NCBI RefSeq assembly: GCF_003097535.1
Contig: NZ_CP029187.1
Span: 62,001 to 126,000, forward strand
Reading direction: 5' to 3'
Length of the DNA: 64,000 nt
From: Flavobacterium pallidum
Lineage (GTDB): Bacteria > Bacteroidota > Bacteroidia > Flavobacteriales > Flavobacteriaceae
A program made the translations under genes and the position numbers. Position 1 is the stretch's first letter. Every line of letters starts with the position of its first letter. The notes under the pieces are model-generated. The model saw only the letters and a list, made by a program, of their open reading frames with translations, made no database searches and was not told the origin of the DNA. Shown one piece after another: positions 25,913 to 58,049 of the stretch.

Positions 25913-25949
25913 AAATTAAAAAGGAAGCCTAAGGCTTCCTTTTTAATTT
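25913..25949. terminator. Bidirectional terminator between cpsB-like gene and wzc, embedded in the wzc 3' end
   Basis: 17-bp perfect stem with a 3-base loop (taa, 25930-25932), T-rich on both exits. The arm at 25933-25949 encodes the last codons of Wzc, and the stop codon (25929-25931) lies across the end of the other arm and the loop. Confidence 0.85.
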
Positions 25950-41955: not shown

Positions 41956-42971
41956 CTTACTTTATAATATTCTTTATACCAATGTACAAATTGCTGAAGG
42001 CCTTCTTTAAGTGAGGTTTGTGGCTTATATCCGGAATATTGCTGCAATTGGTCGATGTCCGCATACGTCTGGAACACATCGCCGGCCTGCATTGGCAGGA
42101 AATCAAGTTTGGCTTCCTTTCCTGAAGATTCCTGGATGAATTTTATAAAATCCATCAATTTCTCAGGATTGTTATTGCCGATATTGAAAACGCGGTAGTC
42201 CGATTGTGACACTTCCTTGTCGATGATTCCGGTTACGCCCTGGATGATGTCGTCGATGTAAGTGAAGTCACGCCTTAAATCGCCATTGTTAAACACCTTG
42301 ATCGGTTTGCCTTCAAACAATGCTTTGGTGAAAAGGAACGGTGCCATATCCGGCCTTCCCCAAGGTCCGTACACGGTAAAAAAACGCAAGCCTGTTGTAG
42401 GCAATCCGTAAAGATGTGAATATACATGCGCCATGAGCTCGTTGCTTTTTTTGGTTGCTGCATAAAGGCTTACCGGATGATCGACGCGGTCATTTTCAGA
42501 GAAAGGAACTTCATCGCGGTTGCCGTATACCGAGGAACTTGAAGCATAAACCAAATGCTTGATATTATTCTGGCGGCAGGCTTCCAGGATGTTGATGAAC
42601 CCAACGACGTTCGATTGCACGTATACTTTCGGGTTGTCGATAGAATAACGCACTCCGGCCTGCGCAGCAAGATTGGCTACCACATCAAACTGCTCTTTTT
42701 CAAAAAGTACATCGAGGCGATGCTCATCGGTCAGGTCGAGCTGGAGGAATTTGAAATGGCTATGAGTGTTGCTACCCACTTCCTTTTGCCTGAGGAAATT
42801 CTCTTCCTGTACATCAATGCCAAGTTGCCTGAGGCGGTCAAGTTTCAGCCTTACATCATAATAAGCGTTCAGGTTATCGATGCCATAGACGTCGTGCCCG
42901 GTTTCGAGCAATCTTTTGACAAGATGGAATCCTATGAAACCTGCGGCTCCTGTAACAAGTATTTTTTTCAT
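41952..42971 (-). CDS. UDP-glucuronate 4-epimerase-like NAD-dependent epimerase
   Basis: 339 residues. NAD-binding TGAAGFIGFHL is at about residues 7-17, the catalytic YAATK near 169 and an SSSVYG motif precedes it. The segment YGIDNLNAYYDVRLK and the overall length match UDP-GlcA 4-epimerases (CapI/LspL). It would convert UDP-glucuronate, made by the Ugd encoded at the right edge, to UDP-galacturonate. It overlaps its neighbours on both sides by 4 bp. Confidence 0.87.
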   Translation of the reverse strand: MKKILVTGAAGFIGFHLVKRLLETGHDVYGIDNLNAYYDVRLKLDRLRQLGIDVQEENFLRQKEVGSNTHSHFKFLQLDLTDEHRLDVLFEKEQFDVVANLAAQAGVRYSIDNPKVYVQSNVVGFINILEACRQNNIKHLVYASSSSVYGNRDEVPFSENDRVDHPVSLYAATKKSNELMAHVYSHLYGLPTTGLRFFTVYGPWGRPDMAPFLFTKALFEGKPIKVFNNGDLRRDFTYIDDIIQGVTGIIDKEVSQSDYRVFNIGNNNPEKLMDFIKFIQESSGKEAKLDFLPMQAGDVFQTYADIDQLQQYSGYKPQTSLKEGLQQFVHWYKEYYKVS

Positions 42972-44086
42972 CTAAGCTTTTTTGATGATTTGATTAGATT
43001 GGCCAATTCGATTGTGGTCATGAATTCGGTTTGGGGCCATTTTTTGCAAATGGTATGCAGTAACTGCCCAAGTTGCTGAAACCCTTTTTCGCGGTTCGAT
43101 GCGTCGAGCGTTCCCATAAAATTGTGCCTGTGGCTGCAGATTACCGCTGGTTTTCCCCAGCGGAAAGCAATTTCGATTTCTTTTAATGCTTTATCAACCT
43201 GTGATGTCTTATGAGAACCCGGTTCAAAAGTGACGTTGCGTACGATATCAAGCTGTCCTGCTTCATTTACCGATCCCATAAACCTTTTTACGGTTGGTTT
43301 TTCATTTGCATGTAAAGGCTGTTGCTTCCTGACGCGCGCGCCCTGAATGACATCGACGCCATTTTCTTTAAGGAAAGGCAGCAACTTCGGGTGCATGGTA
43401 TTTTGCGGAGCGATTACCGACCTGGATGTAAACCCAAAGATTTTTTCGAAATGCTGAAGCCCTTCGCGTATTGTTTTTTTTACGTTTTCCAATTCCGTTT
43501 CGGAAGCAGCGTTGAACGAAGAAAGATATCCTTTAGCATTAATTTCATTACGCCCAAAACCAAAGAAACCATGTTCAAACCCGATCAAGGTTTCGCGTTT
43601 TGCTTCCATTAGGTCTCTCATCCAATATTCCACCTGAACGTGTTCCCGACCGTGAAATTGCGGATAAAAAATACCTGCATTGATTCCGTGTTGCACTTTT
43701 TCAAAGGCATTTCCACAATCATACCGCTCATATGAATTCCTGAAATCCTCATAAAAATATTGCTCAAAACGCGAAGCTTTTATTTTTTCAAAATCAGGAT
43801 TGGCGGTGAGGAAATTGGCGGTGATTTTGGCGTGGTTTCCATTTTTATCTTTTACAGCATTAAGGCATTCATAAAGCATGTCCATATCACTTTCAGTTTC
43901 GAGCGAATCCACACGATTGAAAGGATTGTCCTTAAGCGCAAACTGCTGCGACATGGCCGCGAAAGCATTCGCAGACTGCATCCTGATGCTTCCCCAGTCG
44001 TCGCTTTCAATGACCACAATTTTCCGTGGCGTGGACCAGCCGGAAATGCTGTAAAGGTTATTTTTAATTAAATCTTTAAGGCTCAC
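42968..44086 (-). CDS. Polysaccharide deacetylase-like protein, copy 2
   Basis: 372 residues. It parallels the protein at 36833-37954: VVIESDDWGSI (about 26-36), YPQFHGREHVQV (about 150), GFTSRSVIAPQNT (about 225-237) and CSHRHNFMG near the C-terminus. Both proteins start with a similar SLKxxI segment and have almost the same length, so one arose by duplication. It overlaps the epimerase gene by 4 bp. Function as a sugar deacetylase is inferred from the Asp-Asp and His pattern. Confidence 0.65.
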   Translation of the reverse strand: MSLKDLIKNNLYSISGWSTPRKIVVIESDDWGSIRMQSANAFAAMSQQFALKDNPFNRVDSLETESDMDMLYECLNAVKDKNGNHAKITANFLTANPDFEKIKASRFEQYFYEDFRNSYERYDCGNAFEKVQHGINAGIFYPQFHGREHVQVEYWMRDLMEAKRETLIGFEHGFFGFGRNEINAKGYLSSFNAASETELENVKKTIREGLQHFEKIFGFTSRSVIAPQNTMHPKLLPFLKENGVDVIQGARVRKQQPLHANEKPTVKRFMGSVNEAGQLDIVRNVTFEPGSHKTSQVDKALKEIEIAFRWGKPAVICSHRHNFMGTLDASNREKGFQQLGQLLHTICKKWPQTEFMTTIELANLIKSSKKLR

Positions 44087-44087
44087 T

Positions 44088-45341
44088 TTACTTGATAAAA
44101 TTAATCACGCAGATGTAGGTCTGCGAAATGAATGCCACAATTGGGTTGGAGATAAAGGTATCGACCGTAGCGGTGTCAAACCAGATACGGATTTCCACGA
44201 TGATGTAAAACACGGTGGCAAAAACCTGCAATGGATAAAATTTCTTATACCATTGCTCGTCACCATTAACCATAAATAAAAACAGGAAGGCGTAGAACAT
44301 CAGCAGTGAAGTACGGAAATAACGGAAAAACGTTGGCACTTCCCCCATAATTGCATAGGACAACGACATCAGTAAAAGCGAAAAACACAGCAATGAGAGG
44401 TATTTGCTTTCCAGAAGTTCCTTTCTTTTCCTGAAATATAAAAATGCGATAAGCAGAAAAGTCGTAAAATTCAGCGGCTTTACCTTGAAAGCTACGTACC
44501 AGTTCAGCTCGGAAGCCACTTCGGCCCTGCCCTCGATATAATCGTCGCTGGTGTAACTGGTGGTTTTTTTGTTGAGTGCGTCCAATGAGGTTTCCGGAAT
44601 GTACGACTGTATGTTCACCACCGGAAAACTGTTGATGACCAACGATGCCAGGAATATCATAAAATAGATGTGAAGCCTGTTCCCCGCCAGCTTATACACC
44701 GCAAAGACGACCAGTGTAAAGAAGAAACCGAAGTGTATGAAGGGCGTCGCAATCAATCCTATTAAATGTCGTTTCTTCTTTAAGACCAGGTAATTGTAGC
44801 CGTAAAACATAAACATCTGCGCCCCAATCCAAAACCTGAACGAGTTGATTTCCCAAGGTCCAATGACGAAAGCTACTGTAAAAAGCACAATGCCAAGGTT
44901 GCGGGTCAGTTTGTCCTTACAATGGTCAACCAGCAGCCAGATATTCCGTGACAGGTAATACCCGAAAAGCAACCCGAGTATCGCGTAAAAAATGCCGACA
45001 TCATCTGTAAAACGGCTTACAACGAACTTAAGCAAGGGCATGAAAACGTCAACATATTTTACATCTTCACTATAGAGCCTGGAAGCAAACTGGTCAAAAG
45101 TGATATCAGTCTGGCTGGCCCACTCGACAAAATCCTCGCGGTGCCGGAAAGAATCCATGGATTCCCTCACCGGATAGAACGTGAGTCCGTAAAATCCGCA
45201 GAAGAGCATCACGATGTTCCTCGAATATCTGGATAAGTAATTCTTAATAGAGAACACCAACGAGAAGAATGGGTTGATCAAAAACAGGATCAGCATCCAT
45301 AACGAGTCGTCTTTCTGCGTATTTTCAGTGGTTTGCTGCAT
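44088..45341 (-). CDS. EpsG-family polysaccharide polymerase-like membrane protein
   Basis: 417 residues with about nine or ten membrane helices. The N-terminal part has YPVRESMDSFRHREDF and a middle periplasmic loop near 225-270, similar to EpsG/Wzy-type proteins that polymerise repeat units at the periplasmic face. It is the only polymerase candidate in the window, in accord with one Wzx-like flippase (50830) and the Wza/Wzc exporter. Polymerases diverge widely, so the call rests on topology and context. Confidence 0.75.
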   Translation of the reverse strand: MQQTTENTQKDDSLWMLILFLINPFFSLVFSIKNYLSRYSRNIVMLFCGFYGLTFYPVRESMDSFRHREDFVEWASQTDITFDQFASRLYSEDVKYVDVFMPLLKFVVSRFTDDVGIFYAILGLLFGYYLSRNIWLLVDHCKDKLTRNLGIVLFTVAFVIGPWEINSFRFWIGAQMFMFYGYNYLVLKKKRHLIGLIATPFIHFGFFFTLVVFAVYKLAGNRLHIYFMIFLASLVINSFPVVNIQSYIPETSLDALNKKTTSYTSDDYIEGRAEVASELNWYVAFKVKPLNFTTFLLIAFLYFRKRKELLESKYLSLLCFSLLLMSLSYAIMGEVPTFFRYFRTSLLMFYAFLFLFMVNGDEQWYKKFYPLQVFATVFYIIVEIRIWFDTATVDTFISNPIVAFISQTYICVINFIK

Positions 45342-45347
45342 CAGCTT

Positions 45348-46400
45348 TTAAAATTGGATGTCGTTAATGTCTTCCACTTCACGGATATGCTTTGTCGGAT
45401 TGACGATGGACCACCAATCCATCAGTTTTTGCTTTTCCAGCAATTTGTGGATCCAGTAAAATTTATTCGACGGATTTCCGATCAGTAATGCAGCCGACCA
45501 AAAACTGAACACGATGCTGTTTTTGAGGTTGATGATAAAAAGTTCGGCAGGAACGGTACTCCTGTTAAGGATAATGCGATCCATTTTCTCAAATTTTTCG
45601 ATCTGGAAAGCGTGCGTATTGGGGTGCAATTTGATATAAATCGTCTTATCCGGAAATTTATCCAGGATCGCCTGAAGCACTTCGAGTTCAAAATCATACA
45701 CCTTAAATTCCACATACCACTGGTTGATGTAAAACAACATTCCTTCGGTTTGCGGCATCTCTTTGGTGATATCGAAATTAAATATTTCGGATGCTTTTTT
45801 TGTTTCACCTTCTGAAGTGTACAATGAAATCGGAACTACTTTTTTATGCGTGACATTCTTGTAACTTTCCGGATGGTTGATCCAGACTTCATCGGTCTGT
45901 TTTAAAAAGCCATTTTTATTGCTCACAATGTATAGCCGGTTTACAGAAAGTCGCTGCGTCTTGAAAAAACGGTAGTTTTTGATCGTCGCCCTGAGCCTTG
46001 AAGGGATTGCCGCTTTCGCAATCGTGATGTATGGCCTGGTCCCTTCCGGCGCAATGCAGATGGTGGTGCCTTTCGGAGACAATTTGTTGATCAGGTATTG
46101 ATTAATCGGAGCCTGTTCCAGAAATAAAATGAGCTTTTCGTAGGGTTTTGAAAGTACATAATCGAGTGCCTGCTTCACTTTAGGATCATAGACTTTGCTG
46201 GTAATATCGATTTCAACAACCACAACCTCAACGCCCAGTGCCTCAAAATTCAACTGGTTCTTAAAGCGGTTTGCCTTTATGTTTACATGCAATAAAACGG
46301 TCACATGGTATTGGCTTTTGTCTGAATACAATTGTTCTATCAGGCTTGTAATAACCAATACATGGTACTCAGTGTTTATGGCAAAAAGGATATTCTTCAT
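45348..46400 (-). CDS. Putative sialyltransferase-like (GT52/polysialyltransferase-type) glycosyltransferase
   Basis: 350 residues. The N-terminus MKNILFAINTEYHVLV and the C-terminal KTIYIKLHPNTH (about 255-266), followed by SIVFSFWSAALLIG, resemble the GT-B enzymes that use CMP-sialic acid or CMP-Kdo, in which a K-x-HP segment contacts CMP. Position next to a KdsB-like gene and the pseudaminic acid genes supports a CMP-sugar donor. No close family is recognised with certainty. It may be the transferase for the pseudaminic acid or for the other predicted keto sugar. Confidence 0.55.
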   Translation of the reverse strand: MKNILFAINTEYHVLVITSLIEQLYSDKSQYHVTVLLHVNIKANRFKNQLNFEALGVEVVVVEIDITSKVYDPKVKQALDYVLSKPYEKLILFLEQAPINQYLINKLSPKGTTICIAPEGTRPYITIAKAAIPSRLRATIKNYRFFKTQRLSVNRLYIVSNKNGFLKQTDEVWINHPESYKNVTHKKVVPISLYTSEGETKKASEIFNFDITKEMPQTEGMLFYINQWYVEFKVYDFELEVLQAILDKFPDKTIYIKLHPNTHAFQIEKFEKMDRIILNRSTVPAELFIINLKNSIVFSFWSAALLIGNPSNKFYWIHKLLEKQKLMDWWSIVNPTKHIREVEDINDIQF

Positions 46401-47039
46401 TTAATTCCTGTTTAATATTTGGGCTACCTTCGTCAGATCAGTAAGGAATAACGGCGCGTCCTTCAGGCTGTGATGGTGGTAGCCGATGAATTTGATTTGG
46501 TTGAATTCAGCCGCTTCGAGGTCATTTACGGCATCACCGATCAGTACGATTTCTGCTGGCGAAAAATCACTGGAGCTGATGATATCGGCCACCAGTTGCT
46601 TTTTCGGCGTGGGCGATCCTGATATGATTTTGAAGTGTTTCGCAATGCCGAGCGTCTGGCAAAGATAGTTCAATTCCTTGCCGTCTGAGCCTGAGGCTAT
46701 GGAATGCACGTATGCACCGCCAATTTCCTTCATCAACTCAATCCATTCCGGATTCAAAAGGTTCACATTAACAAGAGCATCTTTCATAATCACCGAAAAA
46801 TTATCGGCAAGCCGGTTCACTTCTTCTTCTGTAATGGATTGATTCAGGATTTTTTCATAAAAATACCTGATTTTCACATAACGGGACAAGCCTCCGTTTT
46901 TCAGGTGGAATTGCACCAATTGCTCAACCTGATCTTCAGGATGGGTTTCAAAAATTTTCCTGAAACCGTACTCACGCACTGCATCCGACAGTAAAATGAC
47001 ACCGTCGAAATCCCAGATGATTTCTTTTATATTATTCAT
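46401..47039 (-). CDS. HAD-family phosphatase
   Basis: About 212 residues from ATG 47039 (MNNIKEIIWDFDG), which overlaps the upstream gene by 8 bp; an upstream in-frame start at 47126 would overlap it by 95 bp. HAD motifs: DFDGVIL with nucleophile Asp, SIASGSDGKE (motif II), K in TPKKQL, and IGDAVNDLEAA (motif IV). A cap domain sits after motif I. Encoded between a CMP-sugar synthetase and a transferase, it may dephosphorylate a keto-acid sugar phosphate before activation, like KdsC or NeuB-linked phosphatases. Confidence 0.82.
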   Translation of the reverse strand: MNNIKEIIWDFDGVILLSDAVREYGFRKIFETHPEDQVEQLVQFHLKNGGLSRYVKIRYFYEKILNQSITEEEVNRLADNFSVIMKDALVNVNLLNPEWIELMKEIGGAYVHSIASGSDGKELNYLCQTLGIAKHFKIISGSPTPKKQLVADIISSSDFSPAEIVLIGDAVNDLEAAEFNQIKFIGYHHHSLKDAPLFLTDLTKVAQILNRN

Positions 47040-47757
47040 CTTTGAGCCTTTCCAAAACTTTTTCCAGATCTTCGGGATGGTCCACAGGCACTGAATCGTT
47101 TGACAATTCGAGCATCCTGACTTCATAACCCATTTCCAAAAACCTCAGGATTTCGATATCCTCCATATCCTCTAACGGTGTTTTTTCCTTTATGGATGCA
47201 AATTCAGCAAGCGCTTTCTTTGGAAAAGCATAAATGCAGACCTGCCTCCACGATTTTATGAAAGTATGGTTTTTATTCCCCGGAATCGGGCTTCTCGACA
47301 TGTATAACATCCTGCCATCGGGGCGGAAAACCACTTTCGGGACTGAACTACTACGGTATTGTTCGTCTGTATCGATGGCACAATAGCCGTTGATGACTTC
47401 ACCGTTGCATTCTTCGAGTTTTGAAATAATCGTTGTGATGTCTTCGGGGTTAAAAACCGGTTCATCTCCCTGAACATTGATGTAATAATCGGCATCTATC
47501 TGCAAGGCTGCTTCAGCAATCCTGTCGGTTCCCGTAAGGCAATCGTCCGAGGTCAGGATCGCCTGCATGCCATGGGCTTCGCAATGCTCGACGATGCGGT
47601 TGTCTTCTGTGGCAACATAAATTTTTTCTTTCGGGAACGCTTTGGCACATTGCTCAAAAACACGTAAAATCATGCTTTTTCCTTTAATGTCCGTCAGCGG
47701 TTTCCCTGGAAAGCGCGTCGATTTGTAACGCGCCGGTATGATTAAGGCTATTTCCAT
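47032..47757 (-). CDS. KdsB-like CMP-keto-acid sugar cytidylyltransferase
   Basis: 241 residues. It has the CTP-binding IPARYKSTRFPGKPL (about 7-21), NVQGDEPVF (about 94), TPLEDMEDIEILRFLE (about 190-205) and VDHPEDLE near the end. These follow 3-deoxy-manno-octulosonate cytidylyltransferase. Because no kdsA or kdsD is nearby and the gene sits beside an aldolase and a HAD phosphatase, the true substrate may be another 3-deoxy-ulosonic acid. Housekeeping KdsB is normally encoded elsewhere; this cannot be checked here. Confidence 0.85.
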   Translation of the reverse strand: MEIALIIPARYKSTRFPGKPLTDIKGKSMILRVFEQCAKAFPKEKIYVATEDNRIVEHCEAHGMQAILTSDDCLTGTDRIAEAALQIDADYYINVQGDEPVFNPEDITTIISKLEECNGEVINGYCAIDTDEQYRSSSVPKVVFRPDGRMLYMSRSPIPGNKNHTFIKSWRQVCIYAFPKKALAEFASIKEKTPLEDMEDIEILRFLEMGYEVRMLELSNDSVPVDHPEDLEKVLERLKDE

Positions 47758-47760
47758 AAA

Positions 47761-49296
47761 TTATGTCAGGTGTGCGTAAACGGAATCGGTTCCGAGGCCT
47801 TTGTAACGTGTCGGTGTGAGCGAATGCAGCGTGATTCCTTTTTCAGAAACGGCTTTGAAAAGCGCTTCATTTTCCACAAAAAGTTCCTGCTCTTTCGTGC
47901 CGATCTTGTCATCGCTGTAACCATCATATCCGGTGAAAAACAGTTCTTCAACACCAAGCTCCAAAGCCGTCTGCAATGCCAGTACGGTATGTGAATCGTC
48001 CACGATATCGGTAAAAACACTTTCGAGCTCAAAACTGTGGCTGCGGATTTTTTCCGGGATAAAGGTCCCCATTTTCCTCGGGAATGGCGGAAGGACGCAG
48101 GTTCCCCTGAAATTTTCAATTTTGTCGAATACAGCTGAAAGCCTGAAACCTTCGTTGCCGACAAGGCTGAAATACTGGTCCTTATCGGTATCTACAAAAT
48201 AACCTGCATTTTTCGAACTCGCGAAAATCAGGCACAAATCATCTGTCCCTTCAATAAAATTATGCAATGCCGGGCGGTGTTTCAATGATGAGGGCCCGCC
48301 TCCGATGACCAATGCTTTTTTATACTTTTTATCTGAAGCGAATTTTGGCAGGTGCTCATTGTCCTGTTTCTTCTCTTTTTGGTTGTGCAGCGCTCTAATG
48401 ATGCTGTTAAAGGAATAATACCTCTTGCTGACCCATTCCATGACGTCTTTCTGCGGCAGCGAATTGGCTCCGGACACCATATACGGCAGGTTGGTGCCCC
48501 ATTCATGCTCTTTCTGCAGTTGCTCGAAAGCATCGGTGACCTGGCTTAAGGCATTGAAATCAACTTCGAGGTTTTCACGTGCGTTGAGCGCCGTAAGCAA
48601 TAATTCGGTTTTCAGGTTTCCGGCGCCGCGGCCCATTCCGGTGATGGTAGAATCGACGATATCGGCACCACATTCGATCGCTGTAAGTGTATTGATCAAT
48701 CCGAGTTCCATATTATTGTGCCCGTGGAATCCGATCGGTACGTCCACTTTTTCCTTCACAAGGTTATACGTATTCCTGACATCGTCCGGGAAAACGCCTC
48801 CGTAGGAATCCACCATATAGAAAATATCGCAAAGGCCCTGAACATCTTTAAGCTGCGCCAGGAAATCCGGATGCTCACGCCAGTTCGACATGTACATTAC
48901 GTTAAAACCGACTTCGAAGCCCATTTTCCTGACTTCTTCCGCCAGGCCCAAAGCACGCTTGAAACTTTTAGGGTCGATGGCCATCCTGACCATTGTAATG
49001 ATGCCGAGGCACGGCTTGAGAAGTTCCACAACATCTTCTCGCAGAACGTCTTTTTCATCGAGGATGATGACAAGTTTTTTGGTCGAAAGCTGCTTGACCT
49101 TATCGAGTACATAATCCGGGCAGTAAAAAAACTCGCCCAGGTATTTTTTCATGGGTTTTGACCTGTAACCGATTTCGAGGTATTCTACCGGCAGGTGGTT
49201 GAAGGAAGTGAAATAGCGGTTTACGATGTCAGTACTGAAATCCCAGTTGGTGTAATATCCTCCGTCCCTTAGTGTACAATCTAATATTTTTGCCAT
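47761..49296 (-). CDS. HMGL/DmpG-type aldolase fused to a C-terminal Rossmann-like domain
   Basis: 511 residues. The N-terminal barrel (about 1-290) starts with DCTLRDGG (6-13) and has the metal-binding GFHGHNN near 190, as in 4-hydroxy-2-oxovalerate aldolase and HMG-CoA lyase. The barrel's typical partner dehydrogenase is absent. The C-terminal part (about 325-511) begins ALVIGGGPSSL and contains LALQTALELGVEELFFTGYDG, reminiscent of DUF115/MptE-like domains, which also occur in flagellin glycosylation proteins. It probably makes or breaks a pyruvate-derived carbon-carbon bond to form a keto-acid sugar, which the KdsB-like enzyme then activates (the genes are 3 bp apart). The pathway is not one I recognise. 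Confidence 0.7.
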   Translation of the reverse strand: MAKILDCTLRDGGYYTNWDFSTDIVNRYFTSFNHLPVEYLEIGYRSKPMKKYLGEFFYCPDYVLDKVKQLSTKKLVIILDEKDVLREDVVELLKPCLGIITMVRMAIDPKSFKRALGLAEEVRKMGFEVGFNVMYMSNWREHPDFLAQLKDVQGLCDIFYMVDSYGGVFPDDVRNTYNLVKEKVDVPIGFHGHNNMELGLINTLTAIECGADIVDSTITGMGRGAGNLKTELLLTALNARENLEVDFNALSQVTDAFEQLQKEHEWGTNLPYMVSGANSLPQKDVMEWVSKRYYSFNSIIRALHNQKEKKQDNEHLPKFASDKKYKKALVIGGGPSSLKHRPALHNFIEGTDDLCLIFASSKNAGYFVDTDKDQYFSLVGNEGFRLSAVFDKIENFRGTCVLPPFPRKMGTFIPEKIRSHSFELESVFTDIVDDSHTVLALQTALELGVEELFFTGYDGYSDDKIGTKEQELFVENEALFKAVSEKGITLHSLTPTRYKGLGTDSVYAHLT

Positions 49297-49307
49297 AATT
49301 CTTATTG

Positions 49308-50837
49308 CTACATTCCTTTGCGGGGAATCGTTAATTTTTTATTTTTTCTTAATCCTAGGATTGATTTATAAGCGGCCAGTTTCAGTTTGTAAAGTAATGG
49401 GCTGCCTAACACGGTAAGGTGTTTGTGTCCCAGCCCCGTGCTTTTCCCCATGAAACTGATTGGGAAAGGATTGAAGGCATTCGGGCGCATGAATTTCTCA
49501 GCGCCGGACAAATAGTAGCCATATTTGATGGCATCCAGTTTGGATCCCGGGCTCAGGTCCTGCTCCAGCAAAGCCACTACTTCATCAACATTTTTGGGTT
49601 TGTAGCCAATGTCCAGATGATAATACCAGCAGGCAGCCAGAATGATAGAAGGCTTTCTCCAATAAGCCGCTTCTGCACCCACAGTAGAGCCAAAGGCCAA
49701 TGTCACATCCGAATAGTCGATCAATGCATACGTGCTGATCCTCGATTTGGGATCAATCACGGTCACATTATCATACATCCCCTGAAAATCCTGCAGCCTG
49801 GTCACATACGAATACTTTACCGCTTTGAGGTTCGGATGCACCCTGATGTAGAAATGGTAGCCCTCACGATTACCCATCTGCTGCAATATGGCATGGATGC
49901 CTTCTTCCTGTGTCCGGAATACGGCCAGCTTGTCAAAAATATCTCCGATCGCCGCAAATTCATCTTCCGAAGAAATGAAAATGCCAATATTCTTTTTGGA
50001 GGCATCCCAGTTTTCCGGCAGCAATTCCTTGTCCTGGCCTGCAACGTAATTTCTTTTTTCAGAATCGGCGATGCCGTTTTTCCGTTTTTCGTAAAAATCG
50101 CTCCCGAATCTTATCCTTTCCTCTACCGATTCCGGAGCGTTTTCCCAAACACTTAAAACCCGCTGATGATTGAAATCGATATCGTGAGGCAGACAATTGA
50201 AAAACTCGTTTATGAAGAATTCCTGGTCGTTTTTCTTGGCAAATTCCAAAGACACAAACGGGATTTCCCTTGTCTTGCAAATGTCATACAATGGCCTGGT
50301 ATCTGCGGTGCGGCCATTGAAAAAGTAAGCGCTTCCGATTTCCTTTTGCTCGATAATATCCAAAACCACATCGGTTAGCATGACCTGGCTGGCGAGCATT
50401 TTGTCAAAATATTCCCGGAACTCAGAATCCATTATCGGCTCGAGGTTCCTCGTTGCAGAGATATAGGTTGAAAAAGCGCCATAGCCAATCTGCACGTCCT
50501 TGTATCGTAGTTTTTTAATATCCGGCACGGAATTGTATTCAAATGTCGGAACACTATACTGCCTGTTGTAATCCGAAATCTTCAATACCTCGACCTGGCC
50601 TTTATATTTGCTTAAAGCGGTATCATTGTTAAACTGGCATAAAGTACATTTTGCCGGATCGCCTTCACGATTGGTATGGCAGGGCTTCAACACGCCGTCA
50701 CAGCTTAAGAAATAGATTTTCCCTTCGCCTTTATTTTGTGCGATGACGCGCTCGAGCTGCTCAATCACCACCCCGAAATGCACGGGATTCAATTGCCAGG
50801 CAAAATAAAATAATATGTTTTTCGGATGATCAGGCAT
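49308..50837 (-). CDS. Capsule-synthesis-type GT-B protein with N-terminal Cys cluster
   Basis: 509 residues. The C-terminal half has YFIRVHPNLK-like and TLAFGSTVGAEAAYWRKPSI segments (about 325-415), typical of GT-B proteins of the capsule polysaccharide (Kdo/phosphate transferase) group. The N-terminal half carries four cysteines spaced C-x6-C-x10-C-x2-C (about 46-67), which could bind zinc or an iron-sulfur cluster; this is unusual for a glycosyltransferase. It lies 11 bp upstream of the aldolase gene and overlaps the flippase gene by 8 bp. It may transfer the keto sugar. Substrate unknown. Confidence 0.6.
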   Translation of the reverse strand: MPDHPKNILFYFAWQLNPVHFGVVIEQLERVIAQNKGEGKIYFLSCDGVLKPCHTNREGDPAKCTLCQFNNDTALSKYKGQVEVLKISDYNRQYSVPTFEYNSVPDIKKLRYKDVQIGYGAFSTYISATRNLEPIMDSEFREYFDKMLASQVMLTDVVLDIIEQKEIGSAYFFNGRTADTRPLYDICKTREIPFVSLEFAKKNDQEFFINEFFNCLPHDIDFNHQRVLSVWENAPESVEERIRFGSDFYEKRKNGIADSEKRNYVAGQDKELLPENWDASKKNIGIFISSEDEFAAIGDIFDKLAVFRTQEEGIHAILQQMGNREGYHFYIRVHPNLKAVKYSYVTRLQDFQGMYDNVTVIDPKSRISTYALIDYSDVTLAFGSTVGAEAAYWRKPSIILAACWYYHLDIGYKPKNVDEVVALLEQDLSPGSKLDAIKYGYYLSGAEKFMRPNAFNPFPISFMGKSTGLGHKHLTVLGSPLLYKLKLAAYKSILGLRKNKKLTIPRKGM

Positions 50838-52134
50838 ATGATTTTGAATTTGAAAGCCACGGCATTGGATATACTTTCTGGCTGTAAATGATGATGATAA
50901 ATGCTTTAAGGAAACTGCCTACCAAAAGCGAATAGGCGGCACCCATGGTCCCGAACCAGTTGACGAGCGGAATCACGCTGGCCGCCTGTACAATGGCGAT
51001 GGTCATGGTGAATATCCCTAAGAATTTGGTCTTTTTACTGTAAAAAACAAACATCGACACGATGTTGTATATGAACCCGAAAAAGATGCTTACAAAAAAG
51101 AACGGCATGTAAAGGATCGCATCTTTGTATGACGAATCAAAGCAGAGTTGTATGAACAGCGCCAGCAAAATATAGGAAACCACCAACAAAACCCCGAAAA
51201 TTAAAGTCGCCAGATAGCACGTTTTCACGATTTTCTTTTTGATGCCGAAATCCTTCTCTATTTCATCTTCCCCAATTTTAAGCTGTTTATACACATAAGG
51301 CGTGAACGCTGCGGAAAAAGAATTTACGAAAAGCGTCACCGCATTGGAAATATTCGATCCGAAGGAATAAATACCTGTCGCATTAATGCCCTGTTTTTTA
51401 GTAATGACGAGACGATCGAAACCGCTGCGTATCCAGGTGGAAAGCCGGTGTGGAAGCAACGGTATGCCAAATTTCAGCGCATCTTTCACCATCGCTTTGT
51501 CATACTTGAATTTCAACAGGTCTTTTTTTGCGAAAGCGATCGCGGCGATAATAAAAAGAATCAGGTTGCTGAGGAATAATGCATATACGCGCCCTTCCCA
51601 TGACATCAGGAATACCGTAATGAAAACAAGGCTCAGCAGCGCCGACGACAACGAGGTCATCAACTGGAAACGGCTGTATTGCTTCAGTTTTTCCTCCATC
51701 CTGAGGTAGATTACAAACAAATCCGTGAAGGCTGAGAAGAACATCATCAGGCTTCCAAGCAACTGGAATTCCAATCCGATCACAAAAAAGTTCTTGATAT
51801 AGCCACTTGTCAGTAAAATCACAATACTTGCTATGAGCATGATGACAAGATTAATGGCAACGAGATTGGTGAGTAATTTTGCCCGGTTTTTAATATCCGT
51901 ACGGTAATAATCTACCGAAAAATATGACTGCGTCCCAAGCCCGATAAAAGCACCCACCATATTCGTATACACCATGTAATTACTGGCAATACCGAATTCA
52001 GCCGGTTTGAGGTATAATGCAATAATGGGCATGATCAGGAAAGGAACCGCCTTGCTAAGCCCGTCCGTGAGTGCATACACCATCATCCGTTTTACAACGG
52101 GTTGCGACAGTCCTTTTTTTATCTTACCGATCAT
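50830..52134 (-). CDS. Wzx-type lipid-linked oligosaccharide flippase
   Basis: 434 residues with about twelve membrane helices in the MATE/MVF pattern: N-terminal LTDGLSKAVPFLIMPIIALYL, a KFGIPLLPHRLSTWI helix in the middle and the paired C-terminal helices. It moves completed lipid-linked repeat units across the inner membrane, for the EpsG-like polymerase. It lies 12 bp downstream of pseI and overlaps the next gene by 8 bp. Confidence 0.9.
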   Translation of the reverse strand: MIGKIKKGLSQPVVKRMMVYALTDGLSKAVPFLIMPIIALYLKPAEFGIASNYMVYTNMVGAFIGLGTQSYFSVDYYRTDIKNRAKLLTNLVAINLVIMLIASIVILLTSGYIKNFFVIGLEFQLLGSLMMFFSAFTDLFVIYLRMEEKLKQYSRFQLMTSLSSALLSLVFITVFLMSWEGRVYALFLSNLILFIIAAIAFAKKDLLKFKYDKAMVKDALKFGIPLLPHRLSTWIRSGFDRLVITKKQGINATGIYSFGSNISNAVTLFVNSFSAAFTPYVYKQLKIGEDEIEKDFGIKKKIVKTCYLATLIFGVLLVVSYILLALFIQLCFDSSYKDAILYMPFFFVSIFFGFIYNIVSMFVFYSKKTKFLGIFTMTIAIVQAASVIPLVNWFGTMGAAYSLLVGSFLKAFIIIIYSQKVYPMPWLSNSKSYA

Positions 52135-52146
52135 GGTTGGAGGTGA

Positions 52147-53190
52147 TTATGCTTCAATAAAATCAAGGCTGAAAGCGATGCCTTTTTCGATATCGCGATT
52201 TACTTTTTTGCCTAAGATTTCCCTGTAATGTTTTGGATGCAAACCATAACCCGGCCTGATGGAACGCACGTTTTCGGGCGTGATGGTGTCGCCGGATTTC
52301 ATATCGCCGACAACGTATAGCGAACGTGAAAATTCGCGGCCGCTTTTCTGTTTATCGGTTAATTTATAGTCTACCGTTCCAATCGCCGACTCGGCTTCGC
52401 GGACCGCTTTCACCATGGCGGTAAATTCTGCTTCATCCATAGAGAAAGACGCATCTGGCCCACCGATGGAATGGTCGAGTATGAAATGCTTTTCTATAAT
52501 TTTCGCACCCATGACCGTCGCTACGATTGGCACTGTGCTGCCCATAGTATGATCGGACAAACCGCTGATGACACCATATCTTTCCGCGAGGTCCTTTACC
52601 ATAATCATATTGGCTTCTCCAATAGGTGCGGGATAACTTGACGTACATTTCAACAAGGCGATATTGTCATTGCCCATCCTTTTGCACGCTTTCACAGCAA
52701 GATCGATATCCTCAAGTTCTGCAATTCCGGTAGAGATGATGATCGGTTTTCCTTTTGAAGCTGTCAATTCAATCAGAGGGATATCAGTAATTTCAAAAGA
52801 AGCGATCTTGTAAGCCGGCGCATCCAGGTCTTCAAGAAATTCGACCGCCGTCGGATCAAAAGGCGATGAAAAACAAACCAACCCCGCTTTCTTCGCTTCA
52901 TCAAAAAGCTGCTTGTGCCATTCCCATGGCGTATAAGCTTCCTGATACAAATTATAAAATGTCTTGCCATCCCAGATCGTACCCTGCTTCAGCCTGAAAT
53001 CATCCTTATCAGAATCGATGGTGATGGTATCGGCAGTATAAGTCTGCAATTTTATGGCATCAGCCCCTGCCCTTTTAGCCGCTTTGATGGTTTCAATGGC
53101 CACTTCAATGCTGCCGTTATGGTTCGCGGAAAGTTCAGCTATGATAAAAACGGGGCTGTCCTTACTGATTTCAAAGTTGTCGATCTTCAT
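52147..53190 (-). CDS. pseI: Pseudaminic acid synthase
   Basis: 347 residues. NeuB-type barrel: AELSANHNGS (18-27), KLQTYTADT (about 47-55), LLKCTSSYPAP, GLSDHT, and EKHFILDHSIGGPDASFSM. A C-terminal SAF domain (about 285-347) follows, with SLYVVGDMKSGD. The TSSYPAP and GGPDASFS signatures are those of PseI rather than NeuB or LegI. It condenses the 6-deoxy diamino-altrose from PseG with phosphoenolpyruvate. Its start codon and the stop of the formyltransferase gene share one base. Confidence 0.93.
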   Translation of the reverse strand: MKIDNFEISKDSPVFIIAELSANHNGSIEVAIETIKAAKRAGADAIKLQTYTADTITIDSDKDDFRLKQGTIWDGKTFYNLYQEAYTPWEWHKQLFDEAKKAGLVCFSSPFDPTAVEFLEDLDAPAYKIASFEITDIPLIELTASKGKPIIISTGIAELEDIDLAVKACKRMGNDNIALLKCTSSYPAPIGEANMIMVKDLAERYGVISGLSDHTMGSTVPIVATVMGAKIIEKHFILDHSIGGPDASFSMDEAEFTAMVKAVREAESAIGTVDYKLTDKQKSGREFSRSLYVVGDMKSGDTITPENVRSIRPGYGLHPKHYREILGKKVNRDIEKGIAFSLDFIEA

Positions 53191-54056
53191 TATCGTAAAA
53201 TTTTATCTTGTTTTAAAAAATCTTTGTTTTCGCGTATTTGTGTCAGTTCAATCACGCCATTTTGTGTCTTAACAAGAACGGCGGGATCTGTCTGTAGAAT
53301 TGTTCCGTTTTCCATGGAAGAATCAAACCCGAAATCAGAAAACGTAACCTTGTCAATCGTGATTTTTTGTCCATCAAGGAATGTAAAAGCACCCGGATAC
53401 GGATGTGCCTGTGCACGCACCCAGTTTTTGATCCGTTCTTTCTGCCAATTCCAGTCAATCTGTCCATCTTCAGGGGTTCTTTTACCAAAATAGGTCGCTT
53501 TGCTATGATCCTGAACAGTAACCGAAAGGCTTCCGTTTTGTATTTTTTCATAAATCTCCCGAATCATAATCGGGTAATAAGTTTCATATTGCGCCAGCAC
53601 TTCGGCACCTGTCATTTCAGGTCCGATCATGATTTGTTTCTGCAATACGATATTACCGGTATCACATTGGTCATCGATGAAATGTGCCGTAATTCCTGTA
53701 ACGGATTCATTATTGATGATGGCCCAGACGTGCGGTGTCCGTCCCCGGTATTTAGGCAATAAACTACCATGAAAATTGATGCAGGAAGGTATCGCATCTA
53801 AAATATCCTGCTCGATCAGGAACAGGTAATTTATGGAGAACAGTAAGTCACAGCTCAGGGAATTTTCGTTTAAAAATGACAGGAGCCGTCCGTTTCTGGG
53901 ATTTCCGGTAAATAGCGGAATCTGCTTTTCTTTAGCAAAATCGATAATACCATCTGACTTCGAATCGGCGGCAATAAAAACAGGATCCAGCAGGTCGCTG
54001 CATTGCTGCAAAACCTTTAATCCGAGTCCGCCCGAAGCTAAAATCCCTATTTTCAT
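53190..54056 (-). CDS. Sugar N-formyltransferase, in the place of PseH
   Basis: 288 residues. It is related to methionyl-tRNA formyltransferase, with the catalytic triad Asn94, His96 and Asp132 visible in INFHGSLLPKYRG and DDQCDTGNIV. The substrate-channel RTPHVWAI segment follows the first motif. Flanked by pseG and pseI with essentially no gaps, it most likely formylates the 4-amino group of the PseC product using N10-formyl-tetrahydrofolate. This would give a 7-formamido pseudaminic acid, and no PseH acetyltransferase is present. The chemistry of the family is known; the substrate is inferred from context. Confidence 0.85.
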   Translation of the reverse strand: MKIGILASGGLGLKVLQQCSDLLDPVFIAADSKSDGIIDFAKEKQIPLFTGNPRNGRLLSFLNENSLSCDLLFSINYLFLIEQDILDAIPSCINFHGSLLPKYRGRTPHVWAIINNESVTGITAHFIDDQCDTGNIVLQKQIMIGPEMTGAEVLAQYETYYPIMIREIYEKIQNGSLSVTVQDHSKATYFGKRTPEDGQIDWNWQKERIKNWVRAQAHPYPGAFTFLDGQKITIDKVTFSDFGFDSSMENGTILQTDPAVLVKTQNGVIELTQIRENKDFLKQDKILR

Positions 54057-55016
54057 TTACAATTCACTGATTAATTGAAGCAGGCGTTTTCCTGACAAAC
54101 CGTCGATAACCTGCCTGGTTTCTATATTTTCAATATTCAGGAACAATTCCTCTGAAATATCTTCAAAACTTTCGAGAGGTATTATGGCCTGCAAGTCACG
54201 GAAACCGTCAAATATTTCACGTTGATTATCTACATACCAAGAACTCATCACTTTGCATCCTGCGGCAAGCGCTTCAAAAACGATGCCGCTGGAAGGTACA
54301 ATCGCAAGGTCTGATTTTTTCATCAGGTCGAGCATTTGCTTTTCGGGTATCGCACTGAAATGTGTGATTTCAGGATAAGCAGCGCAATAAGCCGATAATT
54401 CCTCTGTAAAGGCATAGGCCGCACCGGTAATCACAAAAACCTGATAGTCATTTCTTAAACCTGCAACAAACGCCGTGATTTTCTGTGTCAGGTTTAAATA
54501 ATCACTTCCGCCGAAACAAATCAGGACGGTTTTTATTTTATTTTTCTTTTCAGAGGTCTTCGCCGCCTCAAGGAAAGCCGGACGCAACAATGCATAATCC
54601 GGTCCAAGGGCAAATTTTGTATCCGGCAGCGCTTTATAATCGTCCTCAGAAATTCCGGGGGCATGGTTTATAATCACGTGGGCATGGAATTCCTTTTCGT
54701 GAAGGTCATCAATACATATCACTTTACAATCCTTTGCAATTATGGCTTTGTGGAAATCCACGTTCAGGCCATAGTGATCGATGATGACAATGGCATCGGT
54801 TGGAAGTGAGTTGATGAAATCATTTTCGGAAGCAATTTCCCGTACTGAAAAATCTTTGGTAATGATATCCTGCTTTATGATATCAGGAATTTCCATGCAG
54901 ACAAATTCAATGTCAAAGTCGTCCTGAAGCATTTGTGCCAATGCGAGGCATCGCACCAAATGACCAAGTCCGGTTTGTGCACTTCCGTCTGCCCTGAAAA
55001 AGACCTGTTTTTTCAA
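54057..55016 (-). CDS. pseG: UDP-2,4-diacetamido-2,4,6-trideoxy-beta-L-altropyranose hydrolase
   Basis: 319 residues. The N-terminal FRADGSAQTGLGHLVRCLALA (about 7-27) is the PseG signature, with the catalytic His in GLGH. A second conserved part, CFGGSDYLNLT, and VPSSGIVFEALAAG lie in the C-terminal Rossmann half. It releases UDP from the amino sugar before condensation by PseI. Here the substrate would carry a formyl group in place of one acetyl if the adjacent formyltransferase acts first. Confidence 0.92.
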   Translation of the reverse strand: MKKQVFFRADGSAQTGLGHLVRCLALAQMLQDDFDIEFVCMEIPDIIKQDIITKDFSVREIASENDFINSLPTDAIVIIDHYGLNVDFHKAIIAKDCKVICIDDLHEKEFHAHVIINHAPGISEDDYKALPDTKFALGPDYALLRPAFLEAAKTSEKKNKIKTVLICFGGSDYLNLTQKITAFVAGLRNDYQVFVITGAAYAFTEELSAYCAAYPEITHFSAIPEKQMLDLMKKSDLAIVPSSGIVFEALAAGCKVMSSWYVDNQREIFDGFRDLQAIIPLESFEDISEELFLNIENIETRQVIDGLSGKRLLQLISEL

Positions 55017-55018
55017 AC

Positions 55019-55465
55019 TTAAGCGTTAAATTTTACTACAATCTTTTTCACATCCTGATGGCCTGCATACAATGCCATGTGCGCAAACTGGTTCGGGATA
55101 ATGCAGAAATATCCGGCGGGAACGGTAATGGTTTTAATATTATCGGAATGGGCCAGCAAATAATCACCATCCTTATCATACTCCTTAAAAATGGCGCTCT
55201 CTTTATCCAAATCTGCGTAAGCGACCACATCGACACCCGAAAGCGTAATGTGGATGTCCATTTGTACCTTATGCGCTTCCAGTACGCGCGGATCGAAATT
55301 GTCACCCGGCTTTTCGCTTTTCAGCGGAATCAAAGTAATGGTCTCCAAAGCGGTTTTTGTATCCAGATCTGAAAGAGAATGATTTTCCAGATAAGATGCC
55401 AATTCAGAAATTGCAGGATAAATAGCCTGGTACTCTTTAATATTTTCCAATGTTCCGGTAATCAT
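55019..55465 (-). CDS. YhcH/YjgK/YiaL-family (DUF386) cupin-like protein
   Basis: 148 residues. The EAHKVQMDIHITLSGVD and ITVPAGYFCIIPNQFAHM segments, with their His and Glu residues, match DUF386 metal-binding cupins. Family members occur in sialic acid catabolic operons and are proposed to act as sugar anomerases or lyases. In this biosynthetic cluster it may equilibrate the anomers of the free sugar between PseG and PseI. That role is inferred from its position 2 bp upstream of pseG. Confidence 0.85.
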   Translation of the reverse strand: MITGTLENIKEYQAIYPAISELASYLENHSLSDLDTKTALETITLIPLKSEKPGDNFDPRVLEAHKVQMDIHITLSGVDVVAYADLDKESAIFKEYDKDGDYLLAHSDNIKTITVPAGYFCIIPNQFAHMALYAGHQDVKKIVVKFNA

Positions 55466-55470
55466 AGCGG

Positions 55471-57255
55471 TTACAGTTTAATTTTTGTTTTTTCGTTTAA
55501 TGTATCTATCAATTCCTGGTTGATCATATAAGCCGGATTGATGTGGCTGTTGATTTGGGCAAGTTCAGGATTGGCATCCAGTACTGCGATGACATCTTTT
55601 AAGGTATAATCGGGAACACCGGAAAGTTTCTCATGGATCTGGTTGAACAGCTGCAGATCTTCGTCGTAATCCAGTGTAAGCCTGTAATCCCTGACATACA
55701 TTTCAGGAAGGTCTACGAGGTTGATCTTGAAATGCTCCTGATTGTTCATGAAATACCACGTCATGTATTCAGAATAATCGGCATTCGGGAAATGGCTTTT
55801 TACCTTTTCCAAAGCCTGTGCGTTCATGATTTCAATATTGGTGCCCACACTGGCGTTTTTTCCGGCGGTATAATCGGCGCCGCTTTCAAAATGCGATTGG
55901 AGCAAAATCTGGCAAATGTCATTGTCCAGGTATGGGTTGTCAGCGGTCACACGGATTACGACATCGATCTTAAGCTGCCTGATAATGTCGAGGTATCTTT
56001 GAATCACATCCTCAGGGTCGCCGCGGTGGAAAATCACGGCATCACTGTATGTATAATCCTTCAAAGGCGCATCGGTTTCGAGCGTCGATGTGGCCAGAAT
56101 AACATGATTTACATTTGTAAAACGGCAAAGGTTCTTCAGCGAAAATGATACCGATGGAAGATCACCAATATTCAGCAACGCCTTTTGTTTCAGCCTTGAA
56201 GATTTCAACCTGCATGCCGAAATTACCGCAATATTGGCTTTCTTAAAATCGGTGGCCTGCAGTGTATCTCCTGCAGCCTTATTCGTGCTCAGGATGTGGA
56301 AACTGGCAATCCTGTCACTGATTTCCTTCGAATTCAAACCATTAAGTCCTGATCTTTTATAATCAAAATCATGGGCTACGGAAAGCATTTGTCCTTTGAC
56401 CTTATCGGCTTTCAGGATGGGTTTCATAATAGAATTCTTGAGGTAAGTCCGTTCCCTTTCATTGATGAACCCGGCCTGGTCGAGTTCTGAAAAATTGGTA
56501 ATGATTTCAATCATTTCAGTAAACTGTGCAATATCAAGGCTCGAATATTTATCGTATTTGGTCTCCATATTGTCAAGTAGCACGTGCTTTTCGATGATAT
56601 CGGCACCTGAAGCCATGGCCATGGCCGGCATCCATATTGCGTATTTCGATTCCCTGTCAATGTGGTCGGCGAACACGATTTTCTTGCCGAAATGTTCCTT
56701 TACGATCTTGATTTTTGAAATTCCGGAATCCAGCAGTTGCGTCGGGTAACCCTGGAAACCGACTTCGAGTAAAATCTCAGACGGATTTAAATCAGATTCA
56801 AATTTATTGAGGAAGTACTCGATTTCATGCAATTCCAGTGCAGCGATGTTCAGGATCAGTTTCTTGCCCGATAAATTAAGCGTCGAAAGTTCCCTGATGA
56901 CAACAGCATTAAACAACACCGAAACCTGTAACTTGATGCCGTAAACGGAGTCAAAATTTTCTTTCAATATCTGCACCCCATATTCATCAAAAATATCGAG
57001 CCATACGTTTTTGGTTTCATTCGCAAGCGATATCAAACCGCGCCATTCTTCAGAACTGAAAAGTAATTCCTGATAAATCGTATAGGCAGAGAAATTAGGT
57101 GTCGCCAGTTTATCCGGATGCAAAGGCTGGAATTTGATGCTGTAATCCTGAAATTTTTCAAATTGTTTTATCAAAGCCGTGATGTAGCTGATATCGCCAC
57201 CATGCGTATTTGCAATTTCAATGATAACCTGGTTTCCCAATGATGTATTTTCCAT
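55471..57255 (-). CDS. NeuB-like synthase fused to SpsF-like cytidylyltransferase
   Basis: 594 residues from ATG 57255 (MENTSLGNQVIIEIANTHGG). An upstream in-frame start at 57387 would overlap the SDR gene. Residues 1-275 follow the NeuB/SpsE barrel (IIEIANTHGG, SIKFQPL, VGFQGYPT, ADHIDRES, IIEKHVLLD) but diverge from PseI. Residues about 278-337 resemble a SAF domain. Residues about 338-594 are SpsF-like: ISACRLKSSRLKQKAL, ILATSTLETDAPL, HRGDPEDVIQRYLD and VIRVTADNPYLD. SpsE and SpsF are separate proteins in Bacillus. The cytidylyltransferase half is the only PseF candidate in the window. The synthase half may make a second nonulosonic acid. Confidence 0.82.
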   Translation of the reverse strand: MENTSLGNQVIIEIANTHGGDISYITALIKQFEKFQDYSIKFQPLHPDKLATPNFSAYTIYQELLFSSEEWRGLISLANETKNVWLDIFDEYGVQILKENFDSVYGIKLQVSVLFNAVVIRELSTLNLSGKKLILNIAALELHEIEYFLNKFESDLNPSEILLEVGFQGYPTQLLDSGISKIKIVKEHFGKKIVFADHIDRESKYAIWMPAMAMASGADIIEKHVLLDNMETKYDKYSSLDIAQFTEMIEIITNFSELDQAGFINERERTYLKNSIMKPILKADKVKGQMLSVAHDFDYKRSGLNGLNSKEISDRIASFHILSTNKAAGDTLQATDFKKANIAVISACRLKSSRLKQKALLNIGDLPSVSFSLKNLCRFTNVNHVILATSTLETDAPLKDYTYSDAVIFHRGDPEDVIQRYLDIIRQLKIDVVIRVTADNPYLDNDICQILLQSHFESGADYTAGKNASVGTNIEIMNAQALEKVKSHFPNADYSEYMTWYFMNNQEHFKINLVDLPEMYVRDYRLTLDYDEDLQLFNQIHEKLSGVPDYTLKDVIAVLDANPELAQINSHINPAYMINQELIDTLNEKTKIKL

Positions 57256-57277
57256 TATGAAGTCAATTTTGTGTCGA

Positions 57278-58048: not shown

Positions 58049-58049
58049 A

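Follow-up and report, generated by a model that had tools for sequence, protein, structure and literature searches.

A conserved aldolase, CMP-sugar synthetase and HAD gene cassette and its proposed role in the synthesis of a CMP-activated keto acid sugar

Keto acids activated with cytidine monophosphate (CMP), such as sialic acids, 3-deoxy-manno-octulosonate (Kdo), pseudaminic acid and legionaminic acid, weigh heavily in bacterial surface recognition. To our knowledge, the known routes to these compounds begin with a synthase that depends on phosphoenolpyruvate (PEP). We examined a 64,000-nucleotide stretch (hereafter, the window) of the closed 3.55 Mb genome of Flavobacterium pallidum, which at positions 45348 to 50837 carries a block of five genes inside a long minus-strand polysaccharide locus. 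An earlier note on this DNA had read the block as one unit that makes and transfers an unrecognised CMP-activated keto acid sugar, an interpretation that is, as a whole, partly supported. We think it fairly probable that three of the genes, encoding an aldolase, a KdsB-like synthetase and a HAD protein, form a dedicated pathway whose product is a CMP-activated 3-deoxy-2-keto acid sugar different from Kdo. The proposal builds on the gene families, the conservation of their order, a gene fusion, the separate grouping of the KdsB-like enzymes and the fold of the aldolase protein, all of which are established here. Each enzyme type is known, and we class the combination as a variant of the CMP-ulosonate pathways and not as a member of the Kdo pathway. 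Among the papers listed in searches of an open literature library, the combination is not described.

A three-gene cassette within a five-gene block

All five open reading frames (ORFs) of the block are present on the minus strand and are as tightly packed as the earlier note had stated, neighboring genes being separated or overlapping by at most 11 bp. The aldolase gene (47761..49296) encodes a two-domain protein of 511 aa of the DCTLRDGG type, with a DRE-TIM (HMGL-like) aldolase domain at residues ~1-310 (PF00682 HMGL-like, 81.9 bits against a cut-off of 29) and a Maf/GT42-like domain at residues ~318-511. The KdsB-like CMP-sugar synthetase (47032..47757, minus strand, 241 aa), which belongs to a separate tree group described below, is matched by PF02348 (143.6 bits, cut-off 22.6) and NF009905 (299.8 bits, cut-off 255). 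The HAD phosphatase-type protein (minus strand) was listed as ORF 46401-47126, which probably begins too early; the likelier start places it at 46401..47039 with 212 aa, including the motif NGGLSRY (HAD_2, 39.9 bits against a cut-off of 23.8, scored on the longer ORF). With this revised start, the HAD and KdsB-like genes overlap by 8 bp. According to the ORF coordinates, the remaining spacings are 3 bp between the KdsB-like and aldolase genes, 11 bp between the aldolase gene and that of a 509-aa glycosyltransferase (GT), and 0 bp between the HAD gene and that of a polysialyltransferase-like GT.

We compared 80 loci that were chosen by aldolase similarity alone (the best 80 of 162 relatives) and are not independent, since several share one genus or assembly. 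The closest named locus, from Flavobacterium salilacus (L005), encodes an aldolase that is 78% identical to that of the window. A synthetase-type gene lies downstream of the aldolase gene on the same strand in all 80 loci, as the next gene in 66, the second in 12 and the third in 2. As a control, 516 further genes from these loci were considered; a synthetase that is not the cassette's own lies at positions +1 to +3 of 9 of them (136 if the cassette's own synthetase is counted). Because 80 of 80 aldolase genes but 9 of 516 control genes are followed by a synthetase gene, the adjacency exceeds what is expected by chance. BLAST grouping assigned the synthetases of 29 loci to the KdsB-like type and those of 51 loci to the NeuA-like type (groups of 40, 6 and 5), and PF02348 scored above its cut-off in 10 of the 10 locus synthetases scanned, among them one from the NeuA-like group of 40, one from the group of 6, all five from the group of 5, and one each from two KdsB groups. 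The KdsB-like enzyme that had been named as the aldolase's partner thus holds this place in 29 loci, whereas a NeuA-type enzyme takes it in the other 51.

A HAD gene is found on the same strand, no more than five genes from the aldolase gene, in 68 of the 80 loci. Among the HAD homologues of at least 180 aa encoded near aldolases, the window's included, 68 of 69 have a DxDG-type motif and 68 of 69 have NGG[LI]SRY. The KdsC model was not among the family-model matches of the HAD protein, and its search against the Protein Data Bank (PDB) returned no match at E ≤ 1e−3. The two GT genes seldom accompany the cassette: homologues of the polysialyltransferase-like GT occur in 2 of the 80 loci and homologues of the 509-aa GT in 9. 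A conserved unit of five genes was therefore rejected in favor of one of three genes; the aldolase, KdsB-like and HAD members of the block proposed earlier are conserved, while the two GT genes are part of this locus but lie outside the conserved cassette.

As a second sample, 395 evenly drawn Bacteroidota genomes were searched with the aldolase at E ≤ 1e−10. Matches were found in 119 genomes and are mostly distant HMGL relatives. The full-length aldolase family (at least 51% identity) is present in 9 of the 395 genomes in 10 copies, and all 10 copies have a synthetase and a HAD gene nearby; the loci of at least three of these nine genomes are shared with the 80-locus set (G147/L020, G078/L054 and G227/L053), as judged from identical contig or gene lengths. 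Database searches gave at least 5274 and at least 4900 matches for the aldolase family, in two sets that may overlap and include distant relatives, and the best 120 of each were examined. Among the matches listed, members are currently named "aldolase catalytic domain-containing protein" or "4-hydroxy 2-oxovalerate aldolase".

The gene complement varies around this core. GT29 sialyltransferase-type genes are present in 16 of the 80 loci. At the usual place of the HAD gene, L068, L075, L076 and L081 carry a gene for a PfkB-type sugar kinase (PF00294 confirmed in L068 and L081, which were scanned). An HpcH/HpaI-type aldolase gene occurs in L009, L011, L018, L019, L023, L025, L045, L054, L059, L060 and L084, always with a synthetase of the NeuA type; PF03328 was found in both copies scanned. 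In one genome (G136), a single locus contains two aldolase cassettes (L154 and L155) separated by about 20 kb, each with an HpaI-type aldolase, a NeuA-type synthetase and a HAD gene, the synthetases being of differing groups.

KdsB-like synthetases and their fusion to the aldolase

Elsewhere in its genome, F. pallidum has a further KdsB (C1:3282747) as well as homologues of KdsA and KdsD, all outside the block; as the earlier note had stated, neither KdsA nor KdsD is among the five genes. The separate KdsB led us to reject the KdsB-like protein as the housekeeping KdsB, and the neighborhood comparison suggested by the earlier note places the aldolase beside KdsB-like genes in other genomes as well. 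In a survey of the window's genome and 25 relatives, a KdsB match was detected in all 26 genomes, above the cut-off in 24, and a second full-length KdsB was seen solely in the window's genome. The KdsB-like protein reaches the wider subfamily model NF009905 and scores below two equivalog cut-offs (TIGR00466, 146.1 versus 155.2 bits; NF003948, 176.9 versus 281 bits). The best KdsB matches of 2 of the 26 genomes are likewise under 155.2 bits for TIGR00466.

We aligned 31 cassette copies of the KdsB-like enzyme (L047_17642, which is not a cassette gene, was excluded) with the 26 housekeeping KdsB proteins. The catalytic residues at positions 81, 100, 160, 204, 207 and 210 (R, D, R, E, E and R) are intact in all 31 cassette copies. 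In contrast, in the segment R-H-x-G the H and G are found in 26 of 26 housekeeping proteins and neither is kept at its place by any of the 31 cassette copies: H178 is replaced by Q in 27 and by A in 4, and G180 by C in 27 and by H in 4. Similarly, F158 is replaced by M in 27 and by I in 4, and position 208 is Q in 21 of 26 housekeeping proteins and I in 25 of 31 cassette copies. The window copy itself has Q172, C174 and I203 where Kdo-type enzymes have H, G and mostly Q. In Pseudomonas aeruginosa KdsB, docking of the Kdo-competitive inhibitor Rose Bengal named Arg160, Arg185 and Gly188, the last two of which it placed in the substrate site (PMC7717453). By a motif match made here, Arg185 and Gly188 of that enzyme would flank the changed His.

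In an unrooted tree, 27 cassette, 14 viral and one alphaproteobacterial KdsB domains grouped together (100/98), apart from 25 housekeeping KdsB proteins (98/90). This tree omits HK_L116, whose branch is very long, and HK_L117, which duplicates the window protein; of the 28 viral fusion proteins it includes 14, one per 95% group. An earlier tree had taken in all 60 rows. Given the pocket residues and the phylogeny, the substrate of the KdsB-like enzyme is, as far as sequence comparison can indicate, probably a compound other than Kdo.

These observations also bear on the alternative in which the KdsB-like enzyme acts as an additional, KpsU-like CMP-Kdo synthetase devoted to a capsule, with the aldolase serving some other purpose or making Kdo by another route. 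The closest solved sequence is indeed 1gq9, which we take to be KpsU of Escherichia coli, and such proteins bear the name 3-deoxy-manno-octulosonate cytidylyltransferase in NF009905 and in other NCBI models. Although the general catalytic residues checked are retained, as this alternative would have it, all five PDB sequences compared, including 1gq9, also retain the H and G that are missing from the cassette enzymes. The separate tree group, the fact that 51 of the 80 loci have a synthetase of the NeuA type, the presence of KdsA and KdsD homologues in the genome and the fusion of KdsB-like domains to the aldolase on viral contigs all argue against a second CMP-Kdo synthetase, and we regard it as improbable.

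The fusion is the strongest evidence that the aldolase and the KdsB-like enzyme act in one pathway. Among the IMG/VR contigs, 38 loci encode relatives, and in 28 of them (among L162-L195) a single ORF of 552-589 aa combines an N-terminal aldolase with a C-terminal KdsB-like part that is 45-52% identical to the window's KdsB-like enzyme. The 28 fusions represent 14 distinct proteins at 95%, and both Pfam domains were above cut-off in the 2 fusions scanned. All 28 have Q, C and I at positions 178, 180 and 208, and position 158 varies (C in 14, M in 7, A in 3, S in 2 and I in 2). A database search gave 1167 matches at E ≤ 1e−30, and the 120 of these that were listed all bear PF00682 and PF02348. 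The group of L165 and L166 adjoins a phage-type clamp loader, and L165 also adjoins a phage exonuclease family; for the other fusion contigs, the viral label is the collection's own. No record among named phages covered 80% of the fusion. By BLAST, 15 of the 28 fusion loci (7-11 kb each) contain a small HAD-like gene (with a weak Pfam match, 0.008, in one of three scanned), 8 contain a gene of the PF01973 type and 7 one of the GT29 type. The fusions and their HAD-like, GT29 and PF01973 neighbors represent a possible phage-encoded glycan pathway, and the fusion genes suggest that some phages edit glycans or place such sugars on themselves or on the host.

The same three genes, in the same order, are carried by a plasmid of the alphaproteobacterium Leisingera, with an aldolase of 536 aa that has the same two-part layout. 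Identities to the window proteins are 25% for the aldolase, 27% for the HAD protein and 47% for the KdsB-like enzyme, and the last has M, Q, C and I at positions 158, 178, 180 and 208. A search of named plasmids found three records with most of the aldolase, all from Leisingera. The claim that the aldolase and the KdsB-like enzyme act in one pathway is thus borne out by the adjoining synthetase in 80 of 80 loci, the 28 viral fusions and the trio on the Leisingera plasmid.

A proposed aldolase route and its alternatives

The aldolase domain has a DRE-TIM fold with R-D and HxHxN motifs, and its best functional relatives, both by sequence and by fold, are 4-hydroxy-2-oxovalerate aldolases, although it does not reach the TIGR03217 equivalog model for these enzymes (89.2 versus 286 bits). 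In the NCBI conserved domain database, this aldolase family is classed as one of unknown function. Aldehyde dehydrogenase was absent from the ten neighbors around the aldolase that were scanned with Pfam.

For the substrates, the direction of the aldol reaction, the order of the steps, the product and the acceptor, we infer the following scheme. The metal-dependent aldolase domain, standing in for a PEP-dependent KdsA or NeuB, would add a 2-keto acid to an aldehyde; pyruvate is the most likely keto acid, and the aldehyde is most likely an aldose phosphate supplied by central metabolism. The HAD protein would then remove the phosphate, and the KdsB-like enzyme would couple the keto acid to CMP. 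Finally, transferases of the CMP-sugar type, possibly including the aldolase's own Maf/GT42-like domain, would put the CMP-sugar into the repeat unit of a surface polysaccharide. Because related aldolases accept small aldehydes, a short product of 5 to 7 carbons seems, by this analogy, likelier than one of 9 carbons. A 3-deoxypentulosonic acid in the capsule of Klebsiella K38 is a possible lead. In a search for a known keto acid that would match, the passages of a review that were consulted (PMC3210612) named Kdo, Kdo8N, pseudaminic and neuraminic types, and the terms "ulosaric", "hex-2-ulosonic" and "hept-2-ulosonic" were not found there.

Several observations weigh against a dedicated pathway of this kind. 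Tyr14 stands, four residues after the Arg of LRDG, at the place of the DmpG-type His, and is invariant in 52 aligned sequences (the window and 51 of the 80 loci, in both alignments, A1 and A2), whereas 4jn6 and 4lrs have His at the equivalent place; aldol chemistry with pyruvate may therefore not hold. An HpaI-type second aldolase directly follows the fused aldolase in 11 of the 80 loci and would be redundant if the first aldolase performed the same reaction. Twelve of the 80 loci have no same-strand HAD gene within five genes, and in the four with the PfkB kinase the latter is there instead. The cassette has no conserved precursor gene next to it, which, under the proposed scheme, would make the aldehyde probably a common metabolite. 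Four of the 31 cassette KdsB-like proteins (L015, L021, L024 and L033) form a separate long branch and have Ala and His instead of Gln and Cys. On plasmids of Mesorhizobium, Paraburkholderia and Priestia, the stand-alone aldolase relatives lack a CMP-sugar synthetase within 8 kb (by annotation and BLAST), so that not every relative belongs to the system. Finally, we know of no activity for any member.

Tyr14 and the added HpaI-type aldolase in 11 loci, together with the diversity of the DRE-TIM group, are what one would expect if the three genes form one pathway in which the HMGL-like domain catalyzes something other than an aldol addition of pyruvate. It would then use another donor or another DRE-TIM chemistry (Claisen-type, or carboxyl transfer), and the product would not be a simple 3-deoxy-2-ulosonic acid; other products, such as phosphonates, are also nucleotidyl-activated (PMC6697681). 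This version is rather unlikely, given that 4-hydroxy-2-oxovalerate aldolases are the best functional relatives in both sequence and fold and that KdsB- and NeuA-type synthetases activate 2-keto-3-deoxy acids (PMC2901514).

The scheme leaves a role for the C-terminal domain of the aldolase protein. Searched alone, this domain is, by fold, most like Maf and GT42 CMP-sugar transferases, the shared fold being that of the central domain of Maf. Sequence-profile searching of PDB entries with the domain gave nothing meaningful, and whole-protein fold searches returned the aldolase part and not the C-terminal domain. The window copy scores 16.3 bits with PF01973, under the cut-off of 34.6, and 34 of the 52 members match at E ≤ 0.1; no PF01973 match was found in the window's own genome at E ≤ 1e−3. 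G456-x-D458-x-Y460 is invariant in the 52 aligned aldolase proteins and presumably resembles the CstII motif. By its fold, the extra domain may itself be a CMP-sugar transferase; two Maf enzymes take CMP-Neu5Ac and CMP-Kdo (PMC11339370). For this domain alone, a kinase resembling MptE, or a domain with a regulatory or scaffolding role, is a serious competitor, if a somewhat less than even one.

If the aldolase route is true, it would account for a large family known by generic aldolase names, some genes called Kdo cytidylyltransferase would be misnamed, and acidic sugars not yet known would be indicated. We also put forward, as a broader conjecture that falls slightly short of an even call, that aldolases open a third general way to CMP-activated ulosonic acids, through a mobile three-gene unit of Bacteroidota and Proteobacteria with a KdsB- or NeuA-type synthetase, with large phages carrying the aldolase-synthetase fusion. 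Under this conjecture, some phages could make their own CMP-sugar because they carry the aldolase and the synthetase as one protein, and one bacterial protein would both start and end the pathway because the aldolase also bears a transferase domain.

The surrounding locus and comparison with described pathways

The polysialyltransferase-like GT (45348..46400, minus strand, 350 aa; PF07388, 38.7 bits against a cut-off of 23.3) had no meaningful match in the PDB. The 509-aa GT (49308..50837, minus strand) is a GT-B-like protein distantly related to KpsC/WbbB (Capsule_synth). Its window copy has no Pfam match at E ≤ 1e−3 and is the exception among nine aligned members, of which eight match PF05159 Capsule_synth at E ≤ 1 (best, 6.9e−8); of the ten known copies, the alignment holds that of the window and those of eight of the nine loci with a homologue, L008 being left out. 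Its nine PDB matches at E ≤ 1 are weak (E = 0.015-0.39) and comprise five KpsC entries and four named N-acetylglucosaminyltransferase, including 5fa0, which is WbbB; we infer that the 8cs entries are also WbbB. Entries of the KpsC/WbbB type are retaining beta-Kdo transferases, and the HP motif has a described role in these enzymes (PMC9587256). H334-P335, corresponding to this motif (GT99/GT107), is invariant in nine of nine members of the 509-aa GT family; for the QxxxD nucleophile motif, the residue four positions ahead of the invariant D292 is not Gln, and the PDB match spans the C-terminal part alone. Both GTs fit the transfer of CMP-keto acids, but pseudaminic acid, apparently also a product of this locus, may be what one of the two transfers.

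The gene run continues on both sides of the block. A Wzx-type flippase gene (50830..52134, minus strand; PF01943, 72.1 bits) overlaps the 509-aa GT gene by 8 bp, and a putative polymerase, a Wzy/EpsG-like membrane protein, is encoded at 44088..45341 (minus strand), where EpsG PF14897 scores 26.5 bits, under its cut-off of 30.1. The same locus also encodes NeuB-type synthases for other sugars, one at 52147-53190 and one at 55471-57387, the second joined to a PF02348 cytidylyltransferase in one ORF. A pseudaminic acid gene set with a formyltransferase adjoins the block at 52147-61079, with scores above the cut-offs for PseB (501/407.75 bits), PseC (452.8/423.5), PseG (203.2/153.55) and PseI (508.6/340.25); PseH was not recognised in this set, and no search aimed at PseH was made. 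The set may produce N-formyl pseudaminic acid, a kind reported from Pseudoalteromonas (PMC3210612). Farther away, 25929-28349 encodes a Wzc-type tyrosine autokinase (TIGR01007, 140.1 bits, cut-off 108.05) with a long GY-repeat run near its C-terminus. Two proteins encoded at 36833-37954 and 42968-44086 are alike by eye, both starting with MSLK and both containing RKIVVI; one is a weak glycoside hydrolase 57 match (22.4 bits, cut-off 21.2) and the other has no Pfam match at E ≤ 0.01.

Among described systems, Maf flagellin glycosyltransferases and GT42 sialyltransferases share the fold of the C-terminal domain, which in the cassette is fused to an aldolase and in the window copy has a Pfam score far under the cut-off. 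BVU_2661 of Bacteroides (Phocaeicola) vulgatus (PDB 3dxi) belongs to the same family, with 57% identity over the N-terminal domain, but is represented solely by a structure titled putative aldolase, and the P. vulgatus locus (L081, 49%) has a NeuA-type gene and a PfkB kinase gene downstream. The 4-hydroxy-2-oxovalerate aldolases DmpG, BphI and MhpE have the DRE-TIM fold, the RD and HxH motifs and the GMG-GAGN stretch in common with the cassette aldolase, which differs in having Tyr for His at R+4 and a fused Maf-like or KdsB-like domain. With the nonulosonic acid pathways (NeuB, PseI and the Neu5Ac-9-P type), the cassette would share the activation of a 2-keto-3-deoxy acid as a CMP-sugar, and in 51 of the 80 loci its synthetase is likewise of the NeuA type; unlike them, it has an aldolase and not a PEP-dependent synthase, and a set of epimerase and aminotransferase genes is not in every cassette. 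With the Kdo pathway (KdsD, KdsA, KdsC and KdsB, then a KpsC/WbbB-type or WaaA transferase), the cassette shares CMP activation by a KdsB fold and a CMP-sugar transferase and, if the proposed steps hold, a keto acid phosphate and its phosphatase. The cassette departs from that pathway in having an aldolase in the place of KdsA, a HAD protein without a KdsC model match, and a KdsB-like enzyme of another tree group with an altered pocket.

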